In this document: positions 28,826-62,012 of the stretch, piece by piece
Layout: the number at the start of each line of letters is the position of its first letter
How positions within the stretch are numbered: position 1 is the first letter of the stretch
Assembly: GCA_012798435.1 (NCBI GenBank)
Contig: JAAZNF010000106.1
Location: forward strand, 1-64,000
Reading direction: 5' to 3'
From: Myxococcales bacterium
GTDB taxonomy: Bacteria; Myxococcota; B64-G9
DNA: 64,000 nt
The notes under the pieces: model-generated
Database searches by the model: none
Told to the model about the DNA's origin: nothing
Seen by the model: only the letters and a program-made list of their open reading frames with translations
Position numbers and translations under genes: made by a program

Positions 28826-30778
28826 ATGAGACGGGCGCTGCTTTGGACGGGGATGTCGTGGCTGCTGCTTCCTGTTGCGCTCGCGGACGTCGGGGACAAC
28901 AGCGTAGGCATGAACCTCCACATCGGCCCGCAGTCGTTCATCGACGCCGCGGCCGACCTGGGGGTGGGCTGGGTGCGCATGGACGCCAACTGGTTCGCGC
29001 TCGAGCCTTCGCGCGACGGCTACGACTGGGGCTGGCTGGACGCCTCGGTCGACCGCGCCACCGCCGCCGGCCTGCGGGTGTTTCTCACCCTGGGCTACAC
29101 CCCCGCCTGGGTCGCCCGCCACGGGGACAGCGATGGCGATCCGGGCAACGACTGCCCCGACGACTCGCTCGACTGGGCGGATTTCGTGGCCGACGCCGTC
29201 ACCCACTACCGCGCGCGCGGGGTGACCCACTTCGGCCTGTGGAACGAGCCCAACCTGGGGCAGTTTTTCGAGGGGACGGTGGAGGAGTACGTGAGCCTCA
29301 TCGTGCTCCCCGGAGCGGCGGCGCTGCGCGGTGTGTGCGCCGACTGCAAGGTGCTGGGGCCGGATCTCGCCAACGTGGGCGATTGCGACGACTACCTCGA
29401 GCGGGTGCTGCAACTCGCCGGGCGCGGCGCCTTCGACATCATCACCCACCACAGCTACAACGGCTTCAGCGAGACCGGCTGGCAGATCTGGGACGGGGAC
29501 GGGTTCATCAACGTCCTCGACGACCAGCGTTTCCCCTTCACCCGCCGCGACCTGCGCCAACTCCTCGACGCGGCCGGCTACAACGGCGAGGTGTGGATCA
29601 CCGAGACCGGCTACCGCGCCACCCCCATCGGCGACGCCACCAATGAGAACCTCCAGGCCACCTACGTGCGCCGGGTGCTGGAGGAGCAGCTCAAGCGCGC
29701 CTGGTACACCGCGAGCTTCTTCTACGAGATCTGCGACTGCGGGGTGGACCAGCCGGGCTGCACCATCGACGGTTTCGGCCTGATGCGGCCCACCGCGGGG
29801 CAGTTCGACACCCGGCGCTTCCCGCAGGATTTTCGGCTCAAGCCGGCCTTCCTGCTGCTGCGGCAGTTCATCGCCGATCACCCCGAGATCACCGGCCGCG
29901 AGCCGCCGCCCCAGTGCGGCGATGGCATCGACAACGATCGCGATGGGCTCACCGACCTCGAGGACCGCGGCTGCACCTCGGCCACCGACAACGACGAGTC
30001 GGACGATCCGGCGCGAGCGCGCCTGGACGCCTATTGCCTGGAAGCGCGGCCGGTACTGGACGGCGATCTGGGAGAGTTTGGCCCGGAGGGCTGGATCACG
30101 CTACCCGCCTCTGCCTGGCACGGCACCGAACCGCTGGGCGCGGGCGATCTTTCGGTGCGGCTCTCGGCCCGCTGGACGGCCGAGGGGCTCTTCTTCGGCG
30201 TCGAGGTCCAGGACGACGTCCACGACAACAGCCACCCGCCGGCGGACCTGTGGCAGGGCGACAGCGTGCAGCTGGCCTTCGACGTGGGACGGAACGGCGG
30301 GCTGGCCTATGACAGCACCGACGATCACGAGATCAACTTCGCCCTGTCGAACGACCTGCCGGCGACCTTCCGCTACCGCGGCCCGAGCGGCGCCTCCGAC
30401 GACTTCGGCCTGGCGGTGCTGCGCCGGGAGGATCGGACCTCCTACGAGATCCGCATCGGCCCGACGGCGCTGCCTGGCCTGGCCCTGGCGGCGGGGTCGC
30501 TTTCGAACTTTTCGTTCCTGGTCAACGACGCCGACGGCGCCGGCCGGGTGGGGTGGATGGAGTGGACGCCGGGGATCGGCATGGCCAAGGCGCCGGCCTA
30601 CTACGCGAGATTGCCCTGTCCGCCACCTGTAGCGGCGGCCTCCAGCCCGACGGGGGAAGCGACGCCGGGTTTGACGCCGGGAGCGACGCGGGGGCCGACG
30701 GTTCTGACGCTTCCGCCGACGCCGGTCATGACGGGGGGGGCGACGCTGGTAGCGACCCGTCACCCGACCCGGACGTAG
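28826..30778 (+). CDS. Secreted clan-A glycoside hydrolase with CBM9-like domain (frameshifted near 3' end)
   Basis: Signal peptide (cleavage near VALA-D, residue 20), then a TIM-barrel glycosidase like GH39/GH5/GH53 enzymes: acid/base Glu141 in LWNEPN and nucleophile Glu260 in WITETGY. Residues about 370-400 hold a Ca-binding-like stretch (CGDGIDNDRDGLTD). Residues about 402-610 form a CBM9/DOMON-like beta-sandwich (LDGDLGEFG, LWQGDSVQLAFD). The written frame ends at 30778 with a Pro/Thr-rich tail that I think is false: from about 30657 the other frame encodes an Asp/Gly/Ala spacer and a sorting tail. Substrate unknown; next to starch enzymes, it may attack another polymer. The ATG follows GGAGG. 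Confidence 0.82.
   Translation: MRRALLWTGMSWLLLPVALADVGDNSVGMNLHIGPQSFIDAAADLGVGWVRMDANWFALEPSRDGYDWGWLDASVDRATAAGLRVFLTLGYTPAWVARHGDSDGDPGNDCPDDSLDWADFVADAVTHYRARGVTHFGLWNEPNLGQFFEGTVEEYVSLIVLPGAAALRGVCADCKVLGPDLANVGDCDDYLERVLQLAGRGAFDIITHHSYNGFSETGWQIWDGDGFINVLDDQRFPFTRRDLRQLLDAAGYNGEVWITETGYRATPIGDATNENLQATYVRRVLEEQLKRAWYTASFFYEICDCGVDQPGCTIDGFGLMRPTAGQFDTRRFPQDFRLKPAFLLLRQFIADHPEITGREPPPQCGDGIDNDRDGLTDLEDRGCTSATDNDESDDPARARLDAYCLEARPVLDGDLGEFGPEGWITLPASAWHGTEPLGAGDLSVRLSARWTAEGLFFGVEVQDDVHDNSHPPADLWQGDSVQLAFDVGRNGGLAYDSTDDHEINFALSNDLPATFRYRGPSGASDDFGLAVLRREDRTSYEIRIGPTALPGLALAAGSLSNFSFLVNDADGAGRVGWMEWTPGIGMAKAPAYYARLPCPPPVAAASSPTGEATPGLTPGATRGPTVLTLPPTPVMTGGATLVATRHPTRT
30652..30656 (+). 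other. G5 homopolymer, proposed frameshift site
   Basis: Adding one G here (or slipping back one base) joins the glycosidase frame to the frame reading SDAGFDAGSDAG and the sorting tail. The cause may be a sequencing error, a real mutation, or slippage at the G-run. Confidence 0.55.
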
Positions 30779-30942
30779 ATGCCGGGAGCGACGCCGGGCC
30801 CGACGGGGGTGGGGACGGCGAGGTCGGCGGCTCGGGGTGCGGCTGCGCCTCGGCCCCGTGGGGCGGAGGCGTTCTCTTGCTCTGGCTGGCGCTGGTGCCT
30901 TGGCGGCGAAAGCCGCTTTCCCGCCGACGCGGTTCACGCTAG
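30657..30942 (+). other. Out-of-frame C-terminal tail: acidic spacer plus MYXO-CTERM-like sorting signal
   Basis: In the frame one base earlier than the glycosidase, codons 30657-30942 read a spacer of Asp, Gly, Ser and Ala (repeats of DAGSDAG). GSGCGCASAPWGG, a hydrophobic helix (VLLLWLALVPW) and an Arg/Lys-rich end follow. This matches the tail of the MopE-repeat protein ending at 48491 (GGCGCG, hydrophobic, RRR). In Myxococcota such Cys-containing tails are processed and hold proteins at the surface. It almost certainly belongs to the gene at 28826. Confidence 0.75.
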
Positions 30943-30945
30943 AAT
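30940..30945 (+). promoter_or_regulatory. -10 box of the GH57 gene
   Basis: TAGAAT at 30940-30945, with only CTTTCC/TTTCCC near the -35 position. The box overlaps the stop codon region of the sorting tail. It is the same CTAGAATC core as at 28793. A GGGAGG ribosome site precedes the ATG at 30975. Confidence 0.5.
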
Positions 30946-30974
30946 CCCCCCGCCATCCCGGCGGGAGGTCTTTC

Positions 30975-33797
30975 ATGGTGCGTCTGGTTGTGTTCGTCGC
31001 GCTCGCGGCTGTGGTTTGCTCCGCGGGGTGCCGCCACCCCGATTTCGGGCCCGATGCGTGCGAGGGCGTCACTTGCTCGGGTCACGGGACCTGTGAGGTG
31101 GTCCAGGCCCAGCCGGTGTGCCGCTGCGAGAGCGGGTTTGTGGCCCAGGCGCTCGAGTGCCTGCCCGAGTCCGACCCGTGCGCTCATCTCTCCTGCGTGA
31201 GTGGCACCTGCCGGGTACAGGGGACGAGCGCCGTGTGCGAGTGCGATGTGGGGTACGCTGGCGCCGCCTGTGACGAATGTGCCCCGGGTTACCATCGGGA
31301 AGGTTCGCTGTGCGTCCCCGACGTGGCCGACCCCTGCAACCCCAACCCGTGCGATGAGCCCCACCGCACCGTGTGCCAGCCGGAGGGCGCTGCATTTTCC
31401 TGCCAGTGCGTGAGCGGCTACCACCTCGAGGGTGAACAGTGTGTCCCGGACGCGACCGGCCCCTGCACCCCAAACCCCTGCCACGAGCCTCACCGCACCG
31501 TGTGCGTTCCAGACGGGGCGACTTTTTCATGCGCCTGCGAGGGCGGCTACCAGGACAACGATGGCAACGGCACTTGCCTGGCGAACTGCTTCACGGCCGG
31601 GCTCGCCTGCCCTCCGGGACAATTGTGCGACGACTCCTCCGGCACGGCCGCCTGCGTCCCGGGAGAGAAGCCGCCCATCTACATCGCCTTCCAGTGGCAC
31701 ATGCACCAGCCCATCTACTGGCCCTACGAGAGCGTGGTGGTCACCGAGCAGAACGCGCGCATGCCGTTCTCCGTCTACCAGGTCCACCTCGATCGCAGCG
31801 GGCCCTATACCGGCTGGCCGCGCGACGCCATCGACGCCTGCCGCGGCCTGCCTTGGTGCGGAGCGCAGGTGTCGTTCTCGGGCTCGCTCATGGAGAACCT
31901 GAGCGCGCTATCCGCGGCCGGGGTGGGCTTCAGTAACTGGACCGCGCCGTGGCGCGAGGCGTCGGCCTGGACCACCGCGCGCGGCAACCCGCGGCTGGCC
32001 TTCGTGGCCTTCGGGTATCACCACCCGCTCATGGGGCTCATCGGGCCGGGCGATCTCCGGCTCCAGGTGGCGTTGCACCGCACCGCGCTCCAGCGCGCCT
32101 TCCAGACCGCGCCGGCGCGGGGGATGTTCCCGCCGGAGTGCGCCTTCTCCGAACGCATGATCCCGGCGCTGGCGGAGGAGGGCATCGAGTGGGTGATGGT
32201 GGACAACGTGCACTTCGACCGGGCGCATCGCGACTACCCCTACAGCCCCGCCTCCAACCTGCCGCCGCCGAACCGAGCCGAGCAGGTCAACCGCGCCGCC
32301 ACCGGCTGGGTGCAGCTTCGGGACCTGTGGGCCCCCTCGCCGGTCTCGGCGCCGTGGGGCTACCAGCCGCACTGGGTGGAGTGGACCGATCCCGAGAGCG
32401 GTGAGAAAACGCGCCTGGTGGCCGTGCCCGCGGCGCGCTACGAGGGCAACGAGGACGCGCGCGGCGGGTTCGGGGCCTTGCAGTACGAGAAGGTGCTCAG
32501 CCAGCTCGAGCCCTATAACCTGGATCCGGCGCACCCCATGCTGGTGCTGCTGCACCACGACGGCGACAACTACGGCGCCGGAACCGAGAGCTATTACCAC
32601 GGGAACTTCCAGGCCTTCGTGGCCTGGGCCGCGGCCAACAGCACGCGCTTCGTGCCCACCACCGTGCAGGACTACCTGGACCGCTTCCCGCCCGCGCCCG
32701 ACGACGTCATCCACGTGGAGGACGGCGCCTGGAGCGGGGCCGACAACGGCGACGCCGAGTTCTCCAAGTGGAACGGCGCGCCGGACGCCGAGGGGTACTC
32801 GCCCGACCGCAACTCGTGGGCGGTGGTGGTGGCGGCCGAGAACCGGGTACGCACCGCCGATTCTCTCGCGCTCCGCACCTCCATCGAGGACATCCTGGAC
32901 AACGCCGGCACCGACACCGACCGCGCCTGGCACTACTTCCTCAACGCCGAGACCAGCTGCTACTGGTACTGGGACAACTCGCTGGGCGGCCTGTGGGACA
33001 GCCACCCCACCCGCGCGGCCAACCTGGCGGTGGAGTACGCCGACCGGGTCATCGCCGGCGGAGACGGAACCGATGCCATCGGCCCCACCCTGTACCTGCC
33101 GCAGCGGCGGCCCTTCAACCCCGGACTCGACGGTGCGCCGGCCGACGTGGAGATCTGGACGCTGGCCTACGACGTGGCGGGCCTTGCCGAGGTGGTGCTC
33201 CTGTACCGTCGCGACGGCGACGGCGTGCGCACGAGCGAGAACGACCTCTACGCCGGCGGGAGCTGGACGGAACTGCCCATGTTGGAGGCTCCGCTGCCTC
33301 CCCCGCGCAGCGATCCTTTGCCGGCCTACCGGGCGGCGCGCTACACCGCCACCGTCACCGGCCAGCGCGAGGCCCTGCTCGACTACTACGTGCGCGCGAG
33401 CGACTCGCGCGGCAACGTCACCCGCTCGCCCATCCAGCACGTGTGGATCGGCAGCGCATCTTCCGGTGGCGGCAACTGGACGCCCGAGCGGCCAACCCGA
33501 AACGACGTGATCACTGTGTTCTGGGACCGGCCGGCGAAGCTCCACTGGGGCGTGGACGCCAGCCTGCACGGCGGCGTGTGGCAGCCGCCCCCCGCGGAGT
33601 ACTGGCCCGCGGGCTCGGTGTTGTGGAGCGACGGCAGGGCCATCGAGAGCCCGCTCGCCGGCCCCGACGGTAGCGGCCGCTACACCATCGACATCGGGCC
33701 GTTCAACCAGACGTCGGTTGCCGAGGTCGACTTCGTCTTCCACAACGACGACGGGAGCTGGTCCCGCCCGGACCAGACCATCCCCATCGCTCCGTGA
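30975..33797 (+). CDS. EGF-repeat GH57 family amylase lipoprotein
   Basis: 940-residue lipoprotein (lipobox CSAGC, Cys19). Residues about 29-230 hold four EGF-like Cys modules; two are near copies (CNPNPCDEPHRTVC and CTPNPCHEPHRTVC). From about 234 comes a GH57 catalytic domain: motif 1 FQWHMHQPIYW, the PPECAFSE segment with likely nucleophile Glu388, and LVLLHHDGDNYG as the acid/base Asp motif. GH57 enzymes act on alpha-glucans (amylase, amylopullulanase, branching enzyme, 4-alpha-glucanotransferase). The last 100 residues (VFWDRPAKLHWGVD, FVFHNDDGSWS) look like a starch-binding CBM25-type module. The ATG follows GGGAGG; the GH13-GH15 gene starts 18 nt after the stop. Confidence 0.88.
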   Translation: MVRLVVFVALAAVVCSAGCRHPDFGPDACEGVTCSGHGTCEVVQAQPVCRCESGFVAQALECLPESDPCAHLSCVSGTCRVQGTSAVCECDVGYAGAACDECAPGYHREGSLCVPDVADPCNPNPCDEPHRTVCQPEGAAFSCQCVSGYHLEGEQCVPDATGPCTPNPCHEPHRTVCVPDGATFSCACEGGYQDNDGNGTCLANCFTAGLACPPGQLCDDSSGTAACVPGEKPPIYIAFQWHMHQPIYWPYESVVVTEQNARMPFSVYQVHLDRSGPYTGWPRDAIDACRGLPWCGAQVSFSGSLMENLSALSAAGVGFSNWTAPWREASAWTTARGNPRLAFVAFGYHHPLMGLIGPGDLRLQVALHRTALQRAFQTAPARGMFPPECAFSERMIPALAEEGIEWVMVDNVHFDRAHRDYPYSPASNLPPPNRAEQVNRAATGWVQLRDLWAPSPVSAPWGYQPHWVEWTDPESGEKTRLVAVPAARYEGNEDARGGFGALQYEKVLSQLEPYNLDPAHPMLVLLHHDGDNYGAGTESYYHGNFQAFVAWAAANSTRFVPTTVQDYLDRFPPAPDDVIHVEDGAWSGADNGDAEFSKWNGAPDAEGYSPDRNSWAVVVAAENRVRTADSLALRTSIEDILDNAGTDTDRAWHYFLNAETSCYWYWDNSLGGLWDSHPTRAANLAVEYADRVIAGGDGTDAIGPTLYLPQRRPFNPGLDGAPADVEIWTLAYDVAGLAEVVLLYRRDGDGVRTSENDLYAGGSWTELPMLEAPLPPPRSDPLPAYRAARYTATVTGQREALLDYYVRASDSRGNVTRSPIQHVWIGSASSGGGNWTPERPTRNDVITVFWDRPAKLHWGVDASLHGGVWQPPPAEYWPAGSVLWSDGRAIESPLAGPDGSGRYTIDIGPFNQTSVAEVDFVFHNDDGSWSRPDQTIPIAP

Positions 33798-33815
33798 GCG
33801 AAGGTCGCGCGCGCC

Positions 33816-36800
33816 ATGCGGAAGCTCGTCCTTCTGCTCGTCGGCTGGATCGCTTCGGCGTGCCTTTCCCCCGGCGCCGAATGCCCCGACGGCCACTGTC
33901 TCCACGGGAGCTGCGTTCGCGAGGGCGGGGGATTCACCTGCCGCTGCGACAGCGGCTGGGCCGGCGAGCGCTGCGACGCGTGCGCCGATGGTTTCCACCT
34001 CGCGGGCGGCGAGTGCCTGCCCGACGACGCCTGCACCCCGAACCCTTGCCGCCACGGTGCCTGCTCGCTGGCGGGCGGCGCGGCGGTGTGCGTCTGCCAG
34101 GACGGCTGGGCGGGCGAGCGCTGTGACCGCTGCGCCGACGGCCTGCAGGACCACGACGGGGACGGTGCCTGCCGGCCGGACTGCGCCCATAGCGGGCTCT
34201 CCTGTGCGCCGCTTGTCTGCAGCGATCTGGCTGGCGAGGCGCGCTGTCAGGGGTCGCGCTCGTGCGCCGTGCGGGTGCGCTACCGCCCCGCGGGCCCGCC
34301 CCCACGGGCGATATACCTGCGCGGCGAGTGGAACGGGTGGGACCTCAGCGAGCCGCTCGCGCCGGAGCCCGACGGCAGCCTGTCGCGGGAGATCACGCTC
34401 CCCGCCGGGGACTACGGCTACAAGCTCTACGACCCGGACGCCGACCGCTGGTTCCTCGACGAGGCCAACCCCTACACCAAGTGGATCGCCGGGGTGCAGA
34501 ACTCGCGCCTGCGCGTGCCCGACTGCGAGCGGCCGTTGCTCTACCTGGTGCGCCCCGTCGAACTCGGCGCAAACGCGATCTCCTTCGCCGTGCAGGCTGC
34601 CCCCGGCCGCGCCGGGGCAGCCATCGATGCGACGAGCGCCTCCGCCAGCCGCAACCGGTTGGCTGTGCCCGGTGCCTTCGATGAGCGCACCGGCCGATTC
34701 GAGATCCGGCTGGAAAACCTCCCTGCCGGAAAGCACTCGTTCCGCTTCGAGGTCCGCGACCAGGCCGGCCGGGCGGCGGATCCCTTGTATCTGCCGCTGT
34801 GGCTCGAAGCCGAGCCCTTCGACTGGCGCGACGCGGTGCTGTACTTCCCCATGATCGACCGCTTTCGCAACGGGGACGCCTTGAACGACGGGCCGAGCGC
34901 CAACGTGGACCCCAAGGCCAACTGGCAGGGCGGCGATTTCACGGGGCTGCGCGCCGCCATCGAGGATGGTTTCTTCGACGACCTGGGGGTGAACACCCTG
35001 TGGCTCTCCTCGGTGTCGCAGAACACCGCCGGCGGCTGGCCGGGGAGCGACGGCCGCTCCTACTCCGGCTACCATTCCTACTGGCCCGTCTCCAGCGGGC
35101 ACAGCGCGGCGCGGCCGCTCGCGGGCGTGCAGCCGGTGGAGCCGCACTTCGGCTCGGCCGAGGAACTGCGGCGCCTCGTCGACGCGGCGCACGCGCGCGG
35201 CATGCGGGTGATCGCCGACCTGGTGCTCAACCACGTCCATCAGGAGAGCCCGTTGTGGGCGCTCCACAAGGACGACCAGCCGCCCTGGTTCAGCCCGCTC
35301 TACGTGTGCGGCTGGGACCGCCCCATCGAGTGCTGGTTCGCGCCGTACCTTCCGGACATCGACTACACCAACCTGGACGCGCTGGAGACGATGATCGAGC
35401 ACGCCGCCTGGCAGCTTTCCGAGTTCGATCTGGACGGCTTCCGGGTGGACGCGGTCAAGCACTTCCTCCACGACGTGGGGTGGGCGTTGCGGGCCCGGCT
35501 CGACGAGACGGTGGGTTCTGGTGCCCGGCCGTACCTCTTGGGCGAGACCTTCACCGGCGAGGACGGGGCGGGCCAGATCGCCGAGTACCTCGGGCCGCGC
35601 GAGCTCGACGGGCAGTTCGACTTCCCTCTCTACTGGCAGATCGTCAAGACCTTCCTGCGCGAGGAGCAGGGCCTGGACCGGCTGGCCGAGCGGGTGGCCG
35701 AGGTGCGTGCCGCCTACGGCACGGCGGTGATGTCGACCTTCCTCGGCAACCACGACGTGTGCCGGGCGCTCTCGCACGCCGCCGGAGACATCGCCGATCT
35801 GTGGGGCAACGGCGCGCGCGAACAAGGCTGGAGCGATCCGCCAACGCTACCAGCCGGCGAGCTTCCCTTCCAGCGGCTTCGGCTGGCCTGGACGTTTTTG
35901 TTCACCATGCCCGGGGTGCCGCTCGTGTACTACGGCGACGAATTCGGCCTGGAGGGCGCGGGCGATCCCGACAACCGCCGGAGCATGCGCTTTTCCGGGC
36001 ACACCTCGCAGCAGCTCCTCACCCAGGAGCACCTGCGGCGCCTGTCCTTCGCCCGCCAGGCCCATCCGGCCCTGCGCCGGGGCGAGCCGGTGAGTCTGCT
36101 ACTCGATCCGGACGGACTGTTCTGGGCGTACGGCTCGCAGCACGAGGGCGACCGCGCGCTGGTGGCCCTCAACCGGGACGCCCAGAGCCGCGCGCGGGAG
36201 ATCCCGGTCGGCGCGCTCGGGCTGTCCGACGGCCAGCTCCTGTACGACGCCGTCGGTGGCGAATCGCTCCGCGTGAGCGGGGGACGCGTCGCGCTTACGG
36301 TGCCGGGGCGCGGCTCGGTGGTGCTGGTGCTGCCCGATGCCTGCCACCCCAACCCGTGCCTGGAGGCCGGGCGAGGCGTGTGCGAGCCACTTTCCGCGGG
36401 CCGTCACCGCTGCCGCTGCGATGCCGGCAGCCACGAGTTCGGCGGTTCGTGCCTGCCGGTGTGCAGCGGCGGGCAGGACCTGTGCCTGGCGGCGCGGCCC
36501 AGCTTCTACAGCCTGCCCTCGGCGAACGGCCACGGGGTGGCGGTGTACGACGTGCTGCGGCGGCGGGCGGCGGACCTGTACGAGCACCCGTACCAGGCCT
36601 TCGACGAGGGCGAGACCACCCGCGACGTGCTGTGGGACAGCTACCTCGGGCTGCGCGCGCCCCAGCTCAACGCCTGGCTGAGCCAGGTCCCGCTCGCGGA
36701 GGCCGGCTACCTCCAGGAGTCGGGCATCGTGCGAACCCGCCAGGAACTCTCCGGCCTGGAGGTGGAGAGCTTCTACTACGCGCCGTTCGAACTTTCTCGG

Positions 36801-38471
36801 CCGGCGCTGGGGGTCATCGGGCGGGTGGTGAACCGCCGGGCGGAGCCGGTCGAGGTGTCGCTGTATTCGCTGCACAACTTCCACCTGGGAAACGCGCCGG
36901 CAGCGGATCCGGCCCATCCCGACGCCGCTGGCGAGCGGGTGCTATACCGCGCCGATCGGGGCGCGCTGGTGGAGAGCGGGCCCGCCGGGGTGGTGGTGCA
37001 CTGGCCGCTGTCGGCGCCGAGCCACCACGGCGCCTCGCCGGACAATCCGTACCATGCGCTCCTCGACGGGCGCGATCTTGCGGACACCCTCGATAGCGGT
37101 GTCGGCGACGACCGGGTGGCCGGGTTCCAGAAGGACTTTCATCTCGAACCGAATGGCGAAGGGTGGTTTGGGGTCGTCAGCGTGTTCTCTCCCGCGGCGG
37201 ACGAGGCGGTGTTCGCCGAGCTGGAGGCGGTCTTTGGCGCTCGGGGAGCGCGCGCCGCGCTGGAGGAGGCGCAGGCCGCCTGGGAATCCTGGCGTACGCC
37301 GCCGCCGTCGGGGCTGACGCCAGCGGAGCGGGCGGTGTATCGTCAGGCCGAGGCGCTGCTGCGACAGGGGCAGGTGCGCGAGGAGCGCGCCAAGGCCCGG
37401 GGGCAGATCCTGGCCTCGCTGCCGCCGGGGCAGTGGAACATCGCCTGGGTGCGCGACATGTGCTACGCGGTGGCGGCCCTGGTCCGGCTTCGGCACTTCC
37501 CCGAGGCCCGCGAGGCGCTGCGTTTCATGTTGGAGGCGGACGCCGGCTTCTACCAGGCCGAGGTGGGTGTGCCGTACCAGATCAGCGTGGTGCGCTACTT
37601 CGGGCGGGGACGGGAGGAGAGCGACACCAACGCCGACGGGCCCAACATCGAGTTCGACGGGTTCGGGCTTTTTTTGTGGGTCCTGGCCGAGTACGTGAAG
37701 GCCTCCGGGGACGAGGAGTTCCTGGACCTCTACTGGACCACCGTCCGCGACCGGGTGGCGAACGTGCTGGTCGGCCTGGTCGATCCCGTGAGCGGCCTCG
37801 TTCGGCCGGACTCCAGCATCTGGGAGGTGCACTGGAACGGGCGGCAGAAAAGCTTCGCATACACCAGCGCCACCGCGGCCCGGGGCCTGTGCGCTGTGGC
37901 CGGGTTGGGCGAGGCGCGCGGCGAGACGGCCCTGGCCGAGAGCTGGCGCCAGGCCGGCGCCGGGATCCGCGACGCCATGGCGCTGCGGCTGCGGGACGCC
38001 GACGGCGCGCTGGCGGGGTCGCTGGAGGAGCTGGTGGCTGGCACGGGGGCGCGGGACGTGGCGGTGGTCGAGGCGCTGAACGGGGCGCTGTTCGATCCGC
38101 AGGGCGCCACCGCGCGGGCCACCCTGGACGCCATCGAGCTCGAGCTCGGCACCCGAACCGGCCTGGGGTTCTTCCGCAACGACGACGGCGGCTGGTACGA
38201 CTCGCAGGAATGGGCGGTGGCGGGCCTGTGGGTGTCCTCCGCCGCGCGCCGGGCCGGCCGCGTGGAGCGGGCCGACCGGCTGCTGGGCTGGATCACGGTG
38301 CAGGCGCTGGCCAACTTCAACCTGGCGGCGGAGCTGCACGACCCGCTGGGAGGCGCCTACCTGGGCGCGGTGCCCATGATCGGCTACGGCGCCGGCGCCT
38401 ACGTGCTAGCGCTCATGTCCCGGCTGGATCCGGCGCCTCTGGTTCCGGCCTGCGGCTCCTACGCGCGCTGA
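33816..38471 (+). CDS. EGF-CBM48-GH13-EGF-GH15 bifunctional amylolytic lipoprotein
   Basis: 1551 residues. Lipobox ASAC (Cys16), then EGF-like modules to about 145. A CBM48-like domain (AIYLRGEWNGWD) spans about 150-235 and a linker beta domain reaches about 330. GH13 runs about 335-840: region I VIADLVLNHVH, nucleophile Asp545 in GFRVDAVKH, acid/base Glu577 in LLGETF and Asp647 in FLGNHD. A further EGF-like hinge is at 842-884. A GH15-type domain fills about 890-1551, with its alpha/alpha barrel from about 1170: WVRDMCYA at 1211 and acid Glu1337 in SSIWEVHW. GH13 endo-cleavage plus GH15 release of glucose in one chain would degrade starch or glycogen to glucose at the surface. It is the second gene of the GH57 pair. 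Confidence 0.9.
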   Translation: MRKLVLLLVGWIASACLSPGAECPDGHCLHGSCVREGGGFTCRCDSGWAGERCDACADGFHLAGGECLPDDACTPNPCRHGACSLAGGAAVCVCQDGWAGERCDRCADGLQDHDGDGACRPDCAHSGLSCAPLVCSDLAGEARCQGSRSCAVRVRYRPAGPPPRAIYLRGEWNGWDLSEPLAPEPDGSLSREITLPAGDYGYKLYDPDADRWFLDEANPYTKWIAGVQNSRLRVPDCERPLLYLVRPVELGANAISFAVQAAPGRAGAAIDATSASASRNRLAVPGAFDERTGRFEIRLENLPAGKHSFRFEVRDQAGRAADPLYLPLWLEAEPFDWRDAVLYFPMIDRFRNGDALNDGPSANVDPKANWQGGDFTGLRAAIEDGFFDDLGVNTLWLSSVSQNTAGGWPGSDGRSYSGYHSYWPVSSGHSAARPLAGVQPVEPHFGSAEELRRLVDAAHARGMRVIADLVLNHVHQESPLWALHKDDQPPWFSPLYVCGWDRPIECWFAPYLPDIDYTNLDALETMIEHAAWQLSEFDLDGFRVDAVKHFLHDVGWALRARLDETVGSGARPYLLGETFTGEDGAGQIAEYLGPRELDGQFDFPLYWQIVKTFLREEQGLDRLAERVAEVRAAYGTAVMSTFLGNHDVCRALSHAAGDIADLWGNGAREQGWSDPPTLPAGELPFQRLRLAWTFLFTMPGVPLVYYGDEFGLEGAGDPDNRRSMRFSGHTSQQLLTQEHLRRLSFARQAHPALRRGEPVSLLLDPDGLFWAYGSQHEGDRALVALNRDAQSRAREIPVGALGLSDGQLLYDAVGGESLRVSGGRVALTVPGRGSVVLVLPDACHPNPCLEAGRGVCEPLSAGRHRCRCDAGSHEFGGSCLPVCSGGQDLCLAARPSFYSLPSANGHGVAVYDVLRRRAADLYEHPYQAFDEGETTRDVLWDSYLGLRAPQLNAWLSQVPLAEAGYLQESGIVRTRQELSGLEVESFYYAPFELSRPALGVIGRVVNRRAEPVEVSLYSLHNFHLGNAPAADPAHPDAAGERVLYRADRGALVESGPAGVVVHWPLSAPSHHGASPDNPYHALLDGRDLADTLDSGVGDDRVAGFQKDFHLEPNGEGWFGVVSVFSPAADEAVFAELEAVFGARGARAALEEAQAAWESWRTPPPSGLTPAERAVYRQAEALLRQGQVREERAKARGQILASLPPGQWNIAWVRDMCYAVAALVRLRHFPEAREALRFMLEADAGFYQAEVGVPYQISVVRYFGRGREESDTNADGPNIEFDGFGLFLWVLAEYVKASGDEEFLDLYWTTVRDRVANVLVGLVDPVSGLVRPDSSIWEVHWNGRQKSFAYTSATAARGLCAVAGLGEARGETALAESWRQAGAGIRDAMALRLRDADGALAGSLEELVAGTGARDVAVVEALNGALFDPQGATARATLDAIELELGTRTGLGFFRNDDGGWYDSQEWAVAGLWVSSAARRAGRVERADRLLGWITVQALANFNLAAELHDPLGGAYLGAVPMIGYGAGAYVLALMSRLDPAPLVPACGSYAR

Positions 38472-58577: not shown

Positions 58578-61500
58578 CTACCACTCGATCCCCTCCATGC
58601 GGTACACGTCGGCGCTCACGCGAGTGACGGGGTAGACCAGGCGCGCCCCGTCCGCGGTGAGATCGAAGTCGAAGGTGGAGATCTCGGGTACGCGCCGCGC
58701 TTCCTTGGGCGCGCCGCCGGCGGCGGGGATCTGCATGAGCCGCGCTCCGCTGCCGTCGGGCGTGAGGTAGAAGAGGCTCTTGCCGTCCGCGGCCCAGCGC
58801 AGCCTGCGCTGCGAACGGGTGAAGCTCTCGTGCGCCGTGAGGACCTTTGCCGGGCCGGACCCGTGGGCCAGCAGGCGCAGCGTGGCTGCGCCGGCACCAG
58901 CGGGGTCGGCGGTGTGGCGGAAGGCGATCCGACTCCCGTCGGGAGAGAGCGCCGGGAACACCGCCGTCTCTCCAACGGGGGTGAGCGGCACGGGCTCGCC
59001 ATCCGGCAGCTGGATCTCGTACAGCCTGCGGCCCGCCTCGCCGCTCCGGCTCGCCGCGAACACCACCCGCCGGCACCTCGGGTCGGCGTGCGGAGACCAC
59101 AGGCCGGAAAACCCCCGCGCCAGCGTCCGGATCTCCCCCGTGGGGAGCGTCATCTCCAGAAGCTGCCGATCCTCGCCTTCGGTGCGGGCGAACAGGATGC
59201 GGTCGGGTCCACACCAGCACAGCTCACGGGTGCCGGCCGGCGCCGGGTAGCGCCGCTCGCCGTCACGCTCGGAGTCCGCCACCACGATCTCGGCGGCGCC
59301 GTCATCCTCGTTGTCCTCGGAGCGGAGCGTCCGGTAGGCGAGATATCGACCGTCCGGCGAGAACACCGGGAAGCGATTGCTGACCCGCTCGTCGCCAAGG
59401 TGCCCATTTCCGCCGCCGGCGAGGTCGGCGACCAGCAGGTCCTGCCGCTCTTCCCGGACCTCGAAGGCGAGCGATGTCCCGTCCGGCCACAGATCGGGCG
59501 CGTACTGCCCGGCGGTGGCGCCAGGCGCGAGCAGGTAAGATTTTCCGCCGCCCGCGGGGACGCACCACAGCGCCGGGGTGCCCGCGCGGCGCGAGCTGTA
59601 CACGATCCAGCGGCCATCGGGTGTCCAGGCGGGGTCGGTGTGGTTCAGACGCTTCGGCAGGCCGTCCCGGGTGAGCAAAACGAGCTCGCCGCCGTCGCTT
59701 TCGATCACCCCGATGTCGCGGGCGGTGCGAAAGCCTTCCTGCGCGACCACCAAGGCGATGCGCCGGCCGTCGGGCGAGAAGCGTGGAACATCGAACGAGC
59801 GCGCCTTGCCCCCGGCGAGCAGCACCCGCTCGGCGCCGCCGATCTCGCCGATCACCAGATCGGCGTTGCCGCTCGCGTTCGGCCGGCAGCCGCAGTAGCG
59901 CTTGCCGTCCGGGGAGAGGTCGGGCGGGCAGGCGGCGGGGACGCCGGCCAGCGCCTCGGTCCGGCCGTCGAGGTCGAGCCGCCGGGCCGATGCACCGGCG
60001 GGCTCTCGCGTCGAAAGAAGGAGTGAGCCGCTGCCGCTCCAGGCGAGGCCGGTGATCTCCACGTGCGCATCGGGTTGAAAGAGCTTGTGCGGTGGCGCCG
60101 GGGGATCGGCGGCGATCCACACCGCGCCGTCGCGGAGGAAGGCCACCGCCGCGCCGTCGGGCCGCACCCGCGGGGCGCGCTCCAGTGCCCCGGTCGAGAA
60201 CAGCGGCGTCACCCTTCGTTCGCCGCCGGGAGGCCGCGGCCCCGCCAAGATGATGAACAGCGCAATGGCCAGGGCGACGAGAGCGCCGCCGAGCACGAAT
60301 AGCGGCACCACCCGTCGGCGGGGCTGCTCCTCGCCCAGCAGGCGCGCCACCTCTTCGGCGCCCTTCGGCCGGTGGCGCGGATCCTTTTGGAGGCAGGCCT
60401 GGACCGCGTCGAGCAGTGCGCGGGGGAGATCCGGCCGCAGCGCCGAGAGATCCGGCGCGGGTTGCGTCACCTGCTGGATCAGCACCTCGCCGGCGCTCGG
60501 CGCGGTGAAGGGGGGATTGCCCGAGAGCATCTCGAACAGGACGATCCCCAGCGAGTACAGGTCGGCGGCCGGGCCGGGCGAGAGACCCTGGGCCTGTTCC
60601 GGGGCCATGTACTCGGGGGTGCCGGCCACCCGCGCCGCGCGTTCACCGCCGCGCGCCTCCTTCTCCGCCAGGCGGGCGATGCCGAAGTCGGTGATCACCG
60701 CCCGCCCGGTGCCGTCCTCGATCAGCACGTTGGCCGGCTTGAGGTCCTGGTGGACGACGCCGCGGCGGTGAGCGGCGGCCAGCCCGGCGCACAGCTCCTT
60801 GCCAATCCGCAGCGCCTCCTGCGGCGGCAGCGGCCCCTGCTCGCGCAGGCGCCGCTCCAGCGAGCGCCCGGCCACGAACTCCATGGAGAGGAAGGCCTGG
60901 CCCTCCATGTGCAGGAACTCGTGGATGCGGCACACGTTGGGGTGGGTGACGGCGCGGGCCAGCTTGACCTCGCGCTTGAAGAGTTCCAGGCTCTCGCGCC
61001 GCTCGGCCAGGTGCGGATGGATGAACTTGAGGGCCACCGTCTCGTCGAGGGCGCTGTCGTGGGCGCAGAACACCTGGCCCATGCCGCCCTCGCCGAGGAG
61101 CGAGAGCACGCGGAAGCGGCCGCCGATCACGCTGCCCGCGCTGGCCACCGGCCGGGGCCCGGGCGCCGGCGGAGCCTGCGGGTCCCAGCGCACCTCGAAG
61201 ACCTCCAGCGGCTCGCTCTTGCCCTTCACCAGCACCGCGTCGAAGGGCCGGCACTCGCGGGAGAGCGGATCGTCCTCCAGGGCGCGGCACGCCGCGGCCG
61301 AGATCAGGATGGTCTCGGGCGCGGCCAGCGCCTCCACCCGGGCGGCGGCGTTCACCGTGTCGCCGAACAGATCCCCGCCGCGCACCAGCACCTCGCCGAA
61401 GTTGATACCGATGCGGACGCGGATGCGCTCCTCCTCCGCTTGCGTCTGGTTGTGCGCCGAGAGCGCGCGCATCATCTCGATCGCCGCTGCTACCGCCGGG

Positions 61501-61790
61501 CGCGCGCCGGGGAACTCCACCATCAGGGCGTCGCCGATGGTCTTGACCAGACGCCCGTGGTGTTTCGGCAGCAGGGGTAGCAGCAGCCGGTGGTGGCGCT
61601 CGATGAGCCGCAGGCCCGCCTCGTCGCCGTGCCGCTCGAAGTAGGCGGTGGAGCCGGTGATGTCGGAGAACAGCACCGCGCGCGTCTCGCGAAGCACCCC
61701 GGTCATCTCGGCCGGCGCGGGCTGCAGCATCCCCTCGACCGCGTCCGAGGGGTGCTCCGGCCGTCCCAGCAGCGTCGCCTTGAAGCTCAT
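58578..61790 (-). CDS. Nucleotide cyclase, Ser/Thr kinase and beta-propeller fusion
   Basis: 1070 residues in three parts. A class III cyclase domain is at about 30-200: metal Asp43 in LFSDITGST, Asp87 in VKTIGDAL, and GDTVNAAARVE with the transition-state Asn/Arg. A Ser/Thr kinase is at about 222-490: Gly loop LLGEGGMGQV, Lys255, HQD at 347-349 where HRD is usual, DFG at 368-370, GTPEYMAPEQ. One membrane helix spans about 494-516. A TolB/WD40-like beta-propeller fills about 550-1070 (repeats of FSPDGRRIA, WTPDGRWIVY). Cyclase and kinase face the cytoplasm; the propeller is outside. It looks like a sensor that could couple a cyclic-nucleotide and a phosphorylation output. The ATG at 61790 lies 9 nt after a -10 box. 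Confidence 0.9.
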   Translation of the reverse strand: MSFKATLLGRPEHPSDAVEGMLQPAPAEMTGVLRETRAVLFSDITGSTAYFERHGDEAGLRLIERHHRLLLPLLPKHHGRLVKTIGDALMVEFPGARPAVAAAIEMMRALSAHNQTQAEEERIRVRIGINFGEVLVRGGDLFGDTVNAAARVEALAAPETILISAAACRALEDDPLSRECRPFDAVLVKGKSEPLEVFEVRWDPQAPPAPGPRPVASAGSVIGGRFRVLSLLGEGGMGQVFCAHDSALDETVALKFIHPHLAERRESLELFKREVKLARAVTHPNVCRIHEFLHMEGQAFLSMEFVAGRSLERRLREQGPLPPQEALRIGKELCAGLAAAHRRGVVHQDLKPANVLIEDGTGRAVITDFGIARLAEKEARGGERAARVAGTPEYMAPEQAQGLSPGPAADLYSLGIVLFEMLSGNPPFTAPSAGEVLIQQVTQPAPDLSALRPDLPRALLDAVQACLQKDPRHRPKGAEEVARLLGEEQPRRRVVPLFVLGGALVALAIALFIILAGPRPPGGERRVTPLFSTGALERAPRVRPDGAAVAFLRDGAVWIAADPPAPPHKLFQPDAHVEITGLAWSGSGSLLLSTREPAGASARRLDLDGRTEALAGVPAACPPDLSPDGKRYCGCRPNASGNADLVIGEIGGAERVLLAGGKARSFDVPRFSPDGRRIALVVAQEGFRTARDIGVIESDGGELVLLTRDGLPKRLNHTDPAWTPDGRWIVYSSRRAGTPALWCVPAGGGKSYLLAPGATAGQYAPDLWPDGTSLAFEVREERQDLLVADLAGGGNGHLGDERVSNRFPVFSPDGRYLAYRTLRSEDNEDDGAAEIVVADSERDGERRYPAPAGTRELCWCGPDRILFARTEGEDRQLLEMTLPTGEIRTLARGFSGLWSPHADPRCRRVVFAASRSGEAGRRLYEIQLPDGEPVPLTPVGETAVFPALSPDGSRIAFRHTADPAGAGAATLRLLAHGSGPAKVLTAHESFTRSQRRLRWAADGKSLFYLTPDGSGARLMQIPAAGGAPKEARRVPEISTFDFDLTADGARLVYPVTRVSADVYRMEGIEW

Positions 61791-61799
61791 GCCGCCTCG

Positions 61800-61828
61800 A
61801 AGGTACGGCCCTGGCCTCGAGGAGTCAA
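61800..61828 (-). promoter_or_regulatory. Promoter of the cyclase-kinase fusion gene
   Basis: Minus-strand TTGACT (61828-61823), 17-nt spacer, TACCTT (61805-61800), nine nt before the ATG at 61790. The transcript would have a leader of about three nt, so the GAGG seen just before the ATG would not be in the mRNA. Confidence 0.6.
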
Positions 61829-62012
61829 TCCAGAGAATTCCTCGGCACGGGGCGTGGCCGGTCGATCTCTTCGGAAAAAACGGGGAGAACCTTCGAGCAA
61901 GTGAAAACCCTGGAACGACTTCCCTGCAAAGAGAACTTGGAGTCCAACATTTTGGGTTTTCTGTGTTATTCTTCATCCATCTTTCTTCTTGCCCCGGGTA
62001 CTGGCGCTGCGC

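Follow-up and report, generated by a model that had tools for sequence, protein, structure and literature searches.

A gene pair for EGF-repeat proteins with GH57 and GH13-GH15 domains, predicted to degrade alpha-glucans outside the cell, in a Myxococcota family

Introduction

Three consecutive genes in a genome of the Myxococcales raise the question of whether they encode one surface machine for the breakdown of alpha-glucans, and of what role is played by the EGF-like repeats on two of their products. Repeats of this kind are characteristic of extracellular proteins in animals. The genes lie in the window, by which we mean the whole stretch of 64,000 nucleotides analysed here (contig C35, GenBank JAAZNF010000106.1, positions 1 to 64,000, of assembly GCA_012798435.1, which comprises 5.05 Mb in 129 contigs). 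An earlier note on this DNA had proposed that a clan-A glycosidase (gene 1), a GH57 lipoprotein (gene 2) and a GH13-GH15 lipoprotein (gene 3) work together, with the EGF-like repeats acting as spacers or docking sites. We compared the locus with other assemblies, which are metagenomic and fragmented, with contamination estimates of up to 6% in some; G000 denotes the window's own genome, and G001, G004, G006 and G008 are genera of its family (9 genomes).

Results

Gene order and surroundings

Open reading frames and Pfam profiles agree with the order previously described, i.e. three successive genes for secreted carbohydrate-active proteins on the forward strand (Table 1), the second and third separated by 18 bases. 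The profiles place domains of these genes in GH57 and GH13 (above cut-off) and in GH15 (above cut-off when the domain is scanned alone). A promoter scan returned no promoter, and terminator-like sites fell mostly within genes. Profile scanning of the ten larger open reading frames elsewhere in the window revealed no transporter pair, no carbohydrate genes and no SusC/SusD-like genes; nor did the flanking genes scanned include a sugar transporter, which counts against reading the locus as an alpha-glucan unit. Two further products of the window are a protein with Cu-binding MopE-type putative metal-binding motifs (PF11617; 47061-48491) and a single protein that combines a protein kinase domain, a guanylate-cyclase-type domain and WD40-like PD40 repeats (58578-61976).

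Table 1. Features of the three-gene locus, in window coordinates.
Feature	Position	Strand	Remark
Gene 1: signal peptide, GH39-like clan-A domain, acidic double-disulfide repeat, CBM9	28826..30610	+	Pfam
Gene 1 out-of-frame tail: Asp/Ser-rich linker, GCGC-TM-RRK sorting-signal-like end	30613..30942	+	frame translations
Gene 2: lipoprotein-like signal, ~four EGF-like modules, GH57, Ig_N_CWD1 C-terminal domain	30975..33797	+	
GH57 catalytic core	31665..32954	+	nucleophile Glu codon 32136, acid/base Asp codon 32559
Gene 2 C-terminal starch-binding-type (CBM25/53-type) domain	33408..33797	+	PF23166 Ig_N_CWD1
Gene 3: lipoprotein-like signal, EGF-like repeats, CBM48/AMPK1-like region, GH13, EGF-like linker, GH15	33816..38471	+	
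GH13 domain	34806..36350	+	catalytic Asp/Glu/Asp codons 35448, 35544, 35754
EGF-like module at GH13-GH15 junction	36339..36485	+	compared with separate GH13, GH15 orthologues
GH15 (glucoamylase-like) domain	36486..38468	+	invariant Glu codons 37824, 38331

The GH57 enzyme

The ATG at 30975, with GGAGG ahead of it, was taken as the start of gene 2, and the longest-ORF start at 30837 was set aside. Assignment to GH57, as claimed, is firm: PF03065 scores 58.8 bits against a cut-off of 21.2, the same profile matches 49/49 homologues, and the catalytic residues are intact. Specifically, the Glu of CSR-3 and the Asp of CSR-4 align with E123 and D214, the known catalytic pair of the Thermococcus litoralis 4-alpha-glucanotransferase (1k1w; residue numbers were counted along the printed alignment with this enzyme), and both are invariant in two homologue sets (n = 28 and n = 49). 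At its C-terminus, gene 2 matches PF23166, the profile for the Ig-like domain of alpha-glucan water dikinase (28.9 bits, cut-off 27); among the 49 homologues, CBM53 is found in 16 and CBM25 in 15.

According to Martinovicova and Janecek (PMC6037648), position 23 of the GH57 fingerprint discriminates specificities: Thr, Ser or Ala is typical of alpha-, non-specified and maltogenic amylases, Lys of glucanotransferases, Leu of branching enzymes and Phe of alpha-galactosidases, and positions 35-36 of amylopullulanases are Trp-Trp, with exceptions. Gene 2 carries Asn at position 23 (HHDGDNYG), which agrees with no specificity to which that paper assigns a position-23 residue. Its positions 35-36 are Tyr-Trp, as opposed to the Trp-Trp of amylopullulanases. 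As general background, amylopullulanases carry Asn at position 23.

An AlphaFold (AF2) model of 31665-33797 had a mean pLDDT of 88.7, and its best fold match was the Staphylothermus marinus amylopullulanase SmApu (7e1y; E = 6.6e-17, TM 0.44 and 0.56), with 1k1x a close second. Gene 2 has the fold, the Glu/Asp catalytic pair and the aromatic-Pro-x-Glu and DG(E/D)N-type motifs in common with SmApu and the Aquifex aeolicus APU (9jlq), but identity in the fold search is only 12-13% and, unlike these two enzymes, the gene 2 product is predicted to be secreted, with an EGF stalk and an Ig_N_CWD1/CBM25/53-type C-terminal domain. Together, the short motifs, the fold match (TM ∼0.44-0.56) and the C-terminal domain favour a putative alpha-glucan-acting, amylopullulanase-like enzyme. 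Outside the locus, G000 encodes another secreted-looking GH57 protein, with a Big_5 domain (G000:C84, L178:1172-4912).

A GH13-GH15 fusion

Both catalytic domains that had been assigned to gene 3 were recovered. GH13 scores 91.2 bits with the Alpha-amylase profile of Pfam, above the cut-off; its Asp-Glu-Asp triad is invariant in 7 orthologues, and its PDB matches are alpha-amylases, with 4e2o at the top and Amy4 of Ruminococcus bromii among them. The GH15 domain reaches 23.0 bits (cut-off 22) when scanned alone and 20.9 bits, just below, in the full protein; the profile matches 9/9 homologues of this domain (best E = 2.7e-13). A profile search with the domain matched structures of GH15 dextran dextrinase and bacterial glucoamylase. 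Two Glu residues, E447 and E616, are invariant in 9 homologues; the acid Glu aligns with dextran dextrinase (PDB 9ju0), and the base Glu is placed by position only. AMPK1_CBM remained below its cut-off (21.9 versus 26.8 bits), and the structure model of residues 1-850 was poor (pLDDT 66) and usable for the EGF and CBM48-like regions only.

In the window, GH13 and GH15 form a single open reading frame, whereas they are separate EGF lipoproteins in relatives. At the junction, the GH13 part extends to its natural C-terminus (VLVLP, as in G008), and the final EGF module of the GH15 protein follows. No other case of GH13 and GH15 in one uninterrupted gene was found among 58 genomes. In-frame stop-codon readthrough joining the two in relatives was rejected, because the stop is followed by another ATG with its own signal peptide. 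In another Myxococcota family, homologues of GH13 and GH15 lie close together on one strand (G012:C127:25432-29702), and G000 encodes a further secreted-looking GH13 protein with AMPK1_CBM outside the locus (G000:C124, L177:2198-4558). A literature search of incomplete coverage did not find GH13, GH15, EGF-like and glucoamylase together, which is no proof of novelty.

Conservation and distribution

The GH57 gene is present in five of the nine genomes of the family, in each case with GH13 adjacent (5/5). In G001, G004, G006 and G008, the gene immediately downstream of EGF-GH57 is EGF-GH13, and G006 has EGF-GH15 as the third gene. In G008, the contig breaks off at the start of a third EGF lipoprotein, and a different contig opens with EGF-GH15; we therefore infer the continuity of GH57-GH13-GH15 in this genome, where GH15 is probably third. 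No GH15 follows GH13 in G001, and a second GH13 follows in G004. Of the window genes called, only genes 2 and 3 match the relatives' GH57 loci; since the flanking genes are not in common, the GH57-GH13 order is kept while the flanks change. As to conservation of the trio, the adjacency thus extends to the enzymes of genes 2 and 3, but homologues of gene 1 lie elsewhere.

Beyond the family, this GH57 subfamily occurs in Ignavibacteria, Bacteroidota, Planctomycetota, Riflebacteria and others. Within Myxococcota, 5/195 genomes carry it, all of them in the window's family of nine (Fisher p = 6e-8); three more loci (L078-L080) come from records named Myxococcota or Deltaproteobacteria. The Myxococcota rows fall into one group of the GH57 tree (support 97/95), with L080 on a long branch and of unusual composition, and gene transfer between lineages is possible. 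Among the 49 homologues, 21 end in a T9SS tail and seven carry a type I dockerin (Dockerin_1). The L080 protein ends in a MYXO-CTERM-like tail, and those of L078 and L079 have Thr/Asp-rich or short Cys-repeat linkers. One GH57 core is combined with lineage-specific anchors across phyla, and EGF arrays take the anchor's place in the window's family.

Anchors and EGF stalks

Lipoboxes had been noted in genes 2 and 3. Both products have a signal peptide that ends in Cys after a hydrophobic stretch, but position -3 departs from the strict consensus; judged by the signal sequences and the orthologues, both are likely to be lipidated. Neither carries a T9SS or MYXO-CTERM tail. This, and the fact that lipoprotein-like signals alone do not confer surface exposure, would fit enzymes that stay in the periplasm and serve to remodel either endogenous glycogen or maltodextrin that has been imported. 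Such a location is unlikely, given that GH57 homologues in other phyla bear T9SS tails and dockerins, whose place of action is extracellular, and that long EGF stalks would have no obvious periplasmic role. The gene 2 and 3 enzymes are more probably exposed on the cell surface.

N-terminal EGF repeats common to genes 2 and 3 had also been described. In gene 3, the EGF profile scores 44.0 bits (cut-off 21.5); in gene 2, it stays below the cut-off (17.6 bits), yet its repeats can be aligned with those of the orthologous EGF arrays. The GH57 orthologues have 4 to 11 modules by a loose six-Cys count. Similar arrays occur on other proteins of G000: two clostripain-family (Peptidase_C11) lipoprotein-like proteins have ∼14 (G000:C55, L168:3-4130) and ∼8 (G000:C32, L169:83-3502) N-terminal EGF repeats, and a calcineurin-like phosphoesterase has six (G000:C107, L175:3758-5692). 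EGF_2 matches were found in 9/9 genomes of the family versus 33/184 other Myxococcota sampled (Fisher p = 5e-7). DxDxDG calcium-loop motifs between the modules exceeded shuffled controls in some proteins and were absent from others, and we therefore do not claim a calcium-stiffened stalk. A literature search, again of incomplete coverage, did not find EGF-like, Myxococcota and lipoprotein together.

Because the arrays sit on unrelated hydrolases and vary in length among orthologues, they are best read as generic stalks; a glucan-specific function was rejected on the same grounds. Of the two roles suggested in the earlier note, a spacer is better supported than specific docking. Docking would mean that the repeats join GH57 and GH13-GH15 with other hydrolases in a complex resembling a cellulosome, an arrangement that the presence of arrays on many secreted hydrolases of G000 and of dockerins on some homologues in other phyla might suggest. 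We regard it as quite improbable: no partner receptor was found, repeat number varies freely among orthologues, low-complexity linkers or other anchors replace the arrays in relatives, and the fusion in the window lost EGF repeats instead of keeping a docking set.

Gene 1

The description of gene 1 as a clan-A glycosidase with a CBM9 domain is correct, both Pfam profiles being above their cut-offs (CBM9_1, 35.7 versus 23.4 bits; Glyco_hydro_39, 28.6 versus 26). Since Glyco_hydro_42 also scores above its cut-off (27.5 bits), placement in GH39 itself is marginal. The catalytic Glu motifs of clan GH-A are NEPN at 29243 and ITETG at 29597; a single copy of acid_disulf_rpt is below the model cut-off (28.5 versus 41 bits), and gene 1 has no EGF repeats. 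A sorting tail had been ascribed to this gene, and its sequence is present but out of frame: the open reading frame (28826-30778) is in frame 2 and the tail, ending at 30942, in frame 1, so that gene 1 is frameshifted near 30.6 kb and its open reading frame contains no in-frame MYXO-CTERM sorting domain. The homologues in G001, G006 and G008 are uninterrupted and end in MYXO-CTERM (TIGR03901); the frameshift may have arisen in assembly or may be a genuine lesion. A search with the GCGC-tail pattern was uninformative (282 matches versus 225 in the reversed control).

The homologues of gene 1 lie off the GH57 contigs (G001:C16, G008:C170, G006:C271). Others occur in four further Myxococcota families, f10, f3, f14 and f7 (G017, G031, G023 and G014), in which this GH57 was not found. 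By PDB sequence comparison, the closest solved structures belong to beta-xylosidases and to PslG, an exopolysaccharide hydrolase, and this suggests that the substrate of gene 1 is probably another, beta-linked glycan. Membership of gene 1 in the alpha-glucan module was rejected on its beta-glycosidase clan and the location of its homologues, and it is probably an unrelated neighbour. It is very unlikely that the three genes together encode a single alpha-glucan machine at the surface: they share a strand, each encodes a secreted carbohydrate-active protein and the tail of gene 1 stops 32 bases ahead of gene 2, but none of the genes upstream of GH57 in relatives matches gene 1, its homologues occupy other contigs and families without this GH57, beta-linkages are the target of its clan and of the structures closest to it, and it is frameshifted in the window.

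Discussion

Our favoured reading, to which we give a probability of about 0.72, is that genes 2 and 3 encode a lipid-anchored, external alpha-glucan saccharifying unit on EGF stalks, with gene 1 a separate neighbour. The proposal of one surface machine is thus partly supported, for genes 2 and 3, whose adjacency is kept in relatives, but not for the GH39-like gene 1. An alpha-glucan role outside the cytoplasm is supported for genes 2 and 3 by their families, catalytic residues and adjacency and by the Ig domain of gene 2.

Both products would be exported and anchored by lipid, with the EGF-repeat stalks holding the enzymes away from the membrane. The starch-binding-type domain of gene 2 may capture the polymer, which could be starch, glycogen or a related glucan, and the GH57 enzyme would cut or debranch it, its specificity being a prediction from motifs and fold. 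GH13, acting in the endo mode, could then produce shorter maltodextrins, from whose chain ends the tethered GH15, acting in the exo mode, would free glucose, so that the enzymes might work in synergy. The GH13 and GH15 EGF lipoproteins that are separate in relatives would here have been fused via one EGF module, and gene 1 would be a chance or recent neighbour. More tentatively, and with rather more doubt than belief on our part, EGF arrays may be the standard surface stalk of the window's little-studied family for many unrelated secreted hydrolases (glycosidases, clostripains, a phosphoesterase), and recombination between EGF repeats may give rise to fusions such as GH13-GH15.

If correct, the saccharifying unit would tie the use of external alpha-glucan to a secreted GH57 subfamily that several uncultured phyla share and that is distant from every solved structure, and would illustrate how one enzyme core is fitted to lineage-specific surface anchors. 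In this family, the EGF platform would do the job of T9SS tails, dockerins and MYXO-CTERM elsewhere. A bacterial family with EGF enzyme stalks would also provide an instance in which convergence in stalk design, and the fusion of enzymes within EGF repeats, can be put to the test.

In Sus-type systems of Bacteroides, a surface lipoprotein of family GH13 (SusG) works on starch at the cell. The window differs in its EGF stalk and in its GH57 and GH15 partners, and no SusC/SusD-like gene accompanies them among the open reading frames scanned. The amylosome of Ruminococcus bromii brings several amylases and starch-binding modules together outside the cell by dockerin-cohesin assembly, whereas genes 2 and 3 have EGF arrays behind lipoprotein-like signals, and no cohesin was found to partner them. 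Closer in lineage, the myxococcotal Sandaracinus amylolyticus has GH13, GH57 and GH15 enzymes, as does the window, and CBM48 on its GH13 (PMC5010890). Its GH57 and GH15 enzymes are described as single-domain proteins, unlike the products of genes 2 and 3, and the main text of that paper does not mention EGF (PMC5010890). Genes 2 and 3 encode enzymes of known families, and their EGF display arm is an unusual variant.
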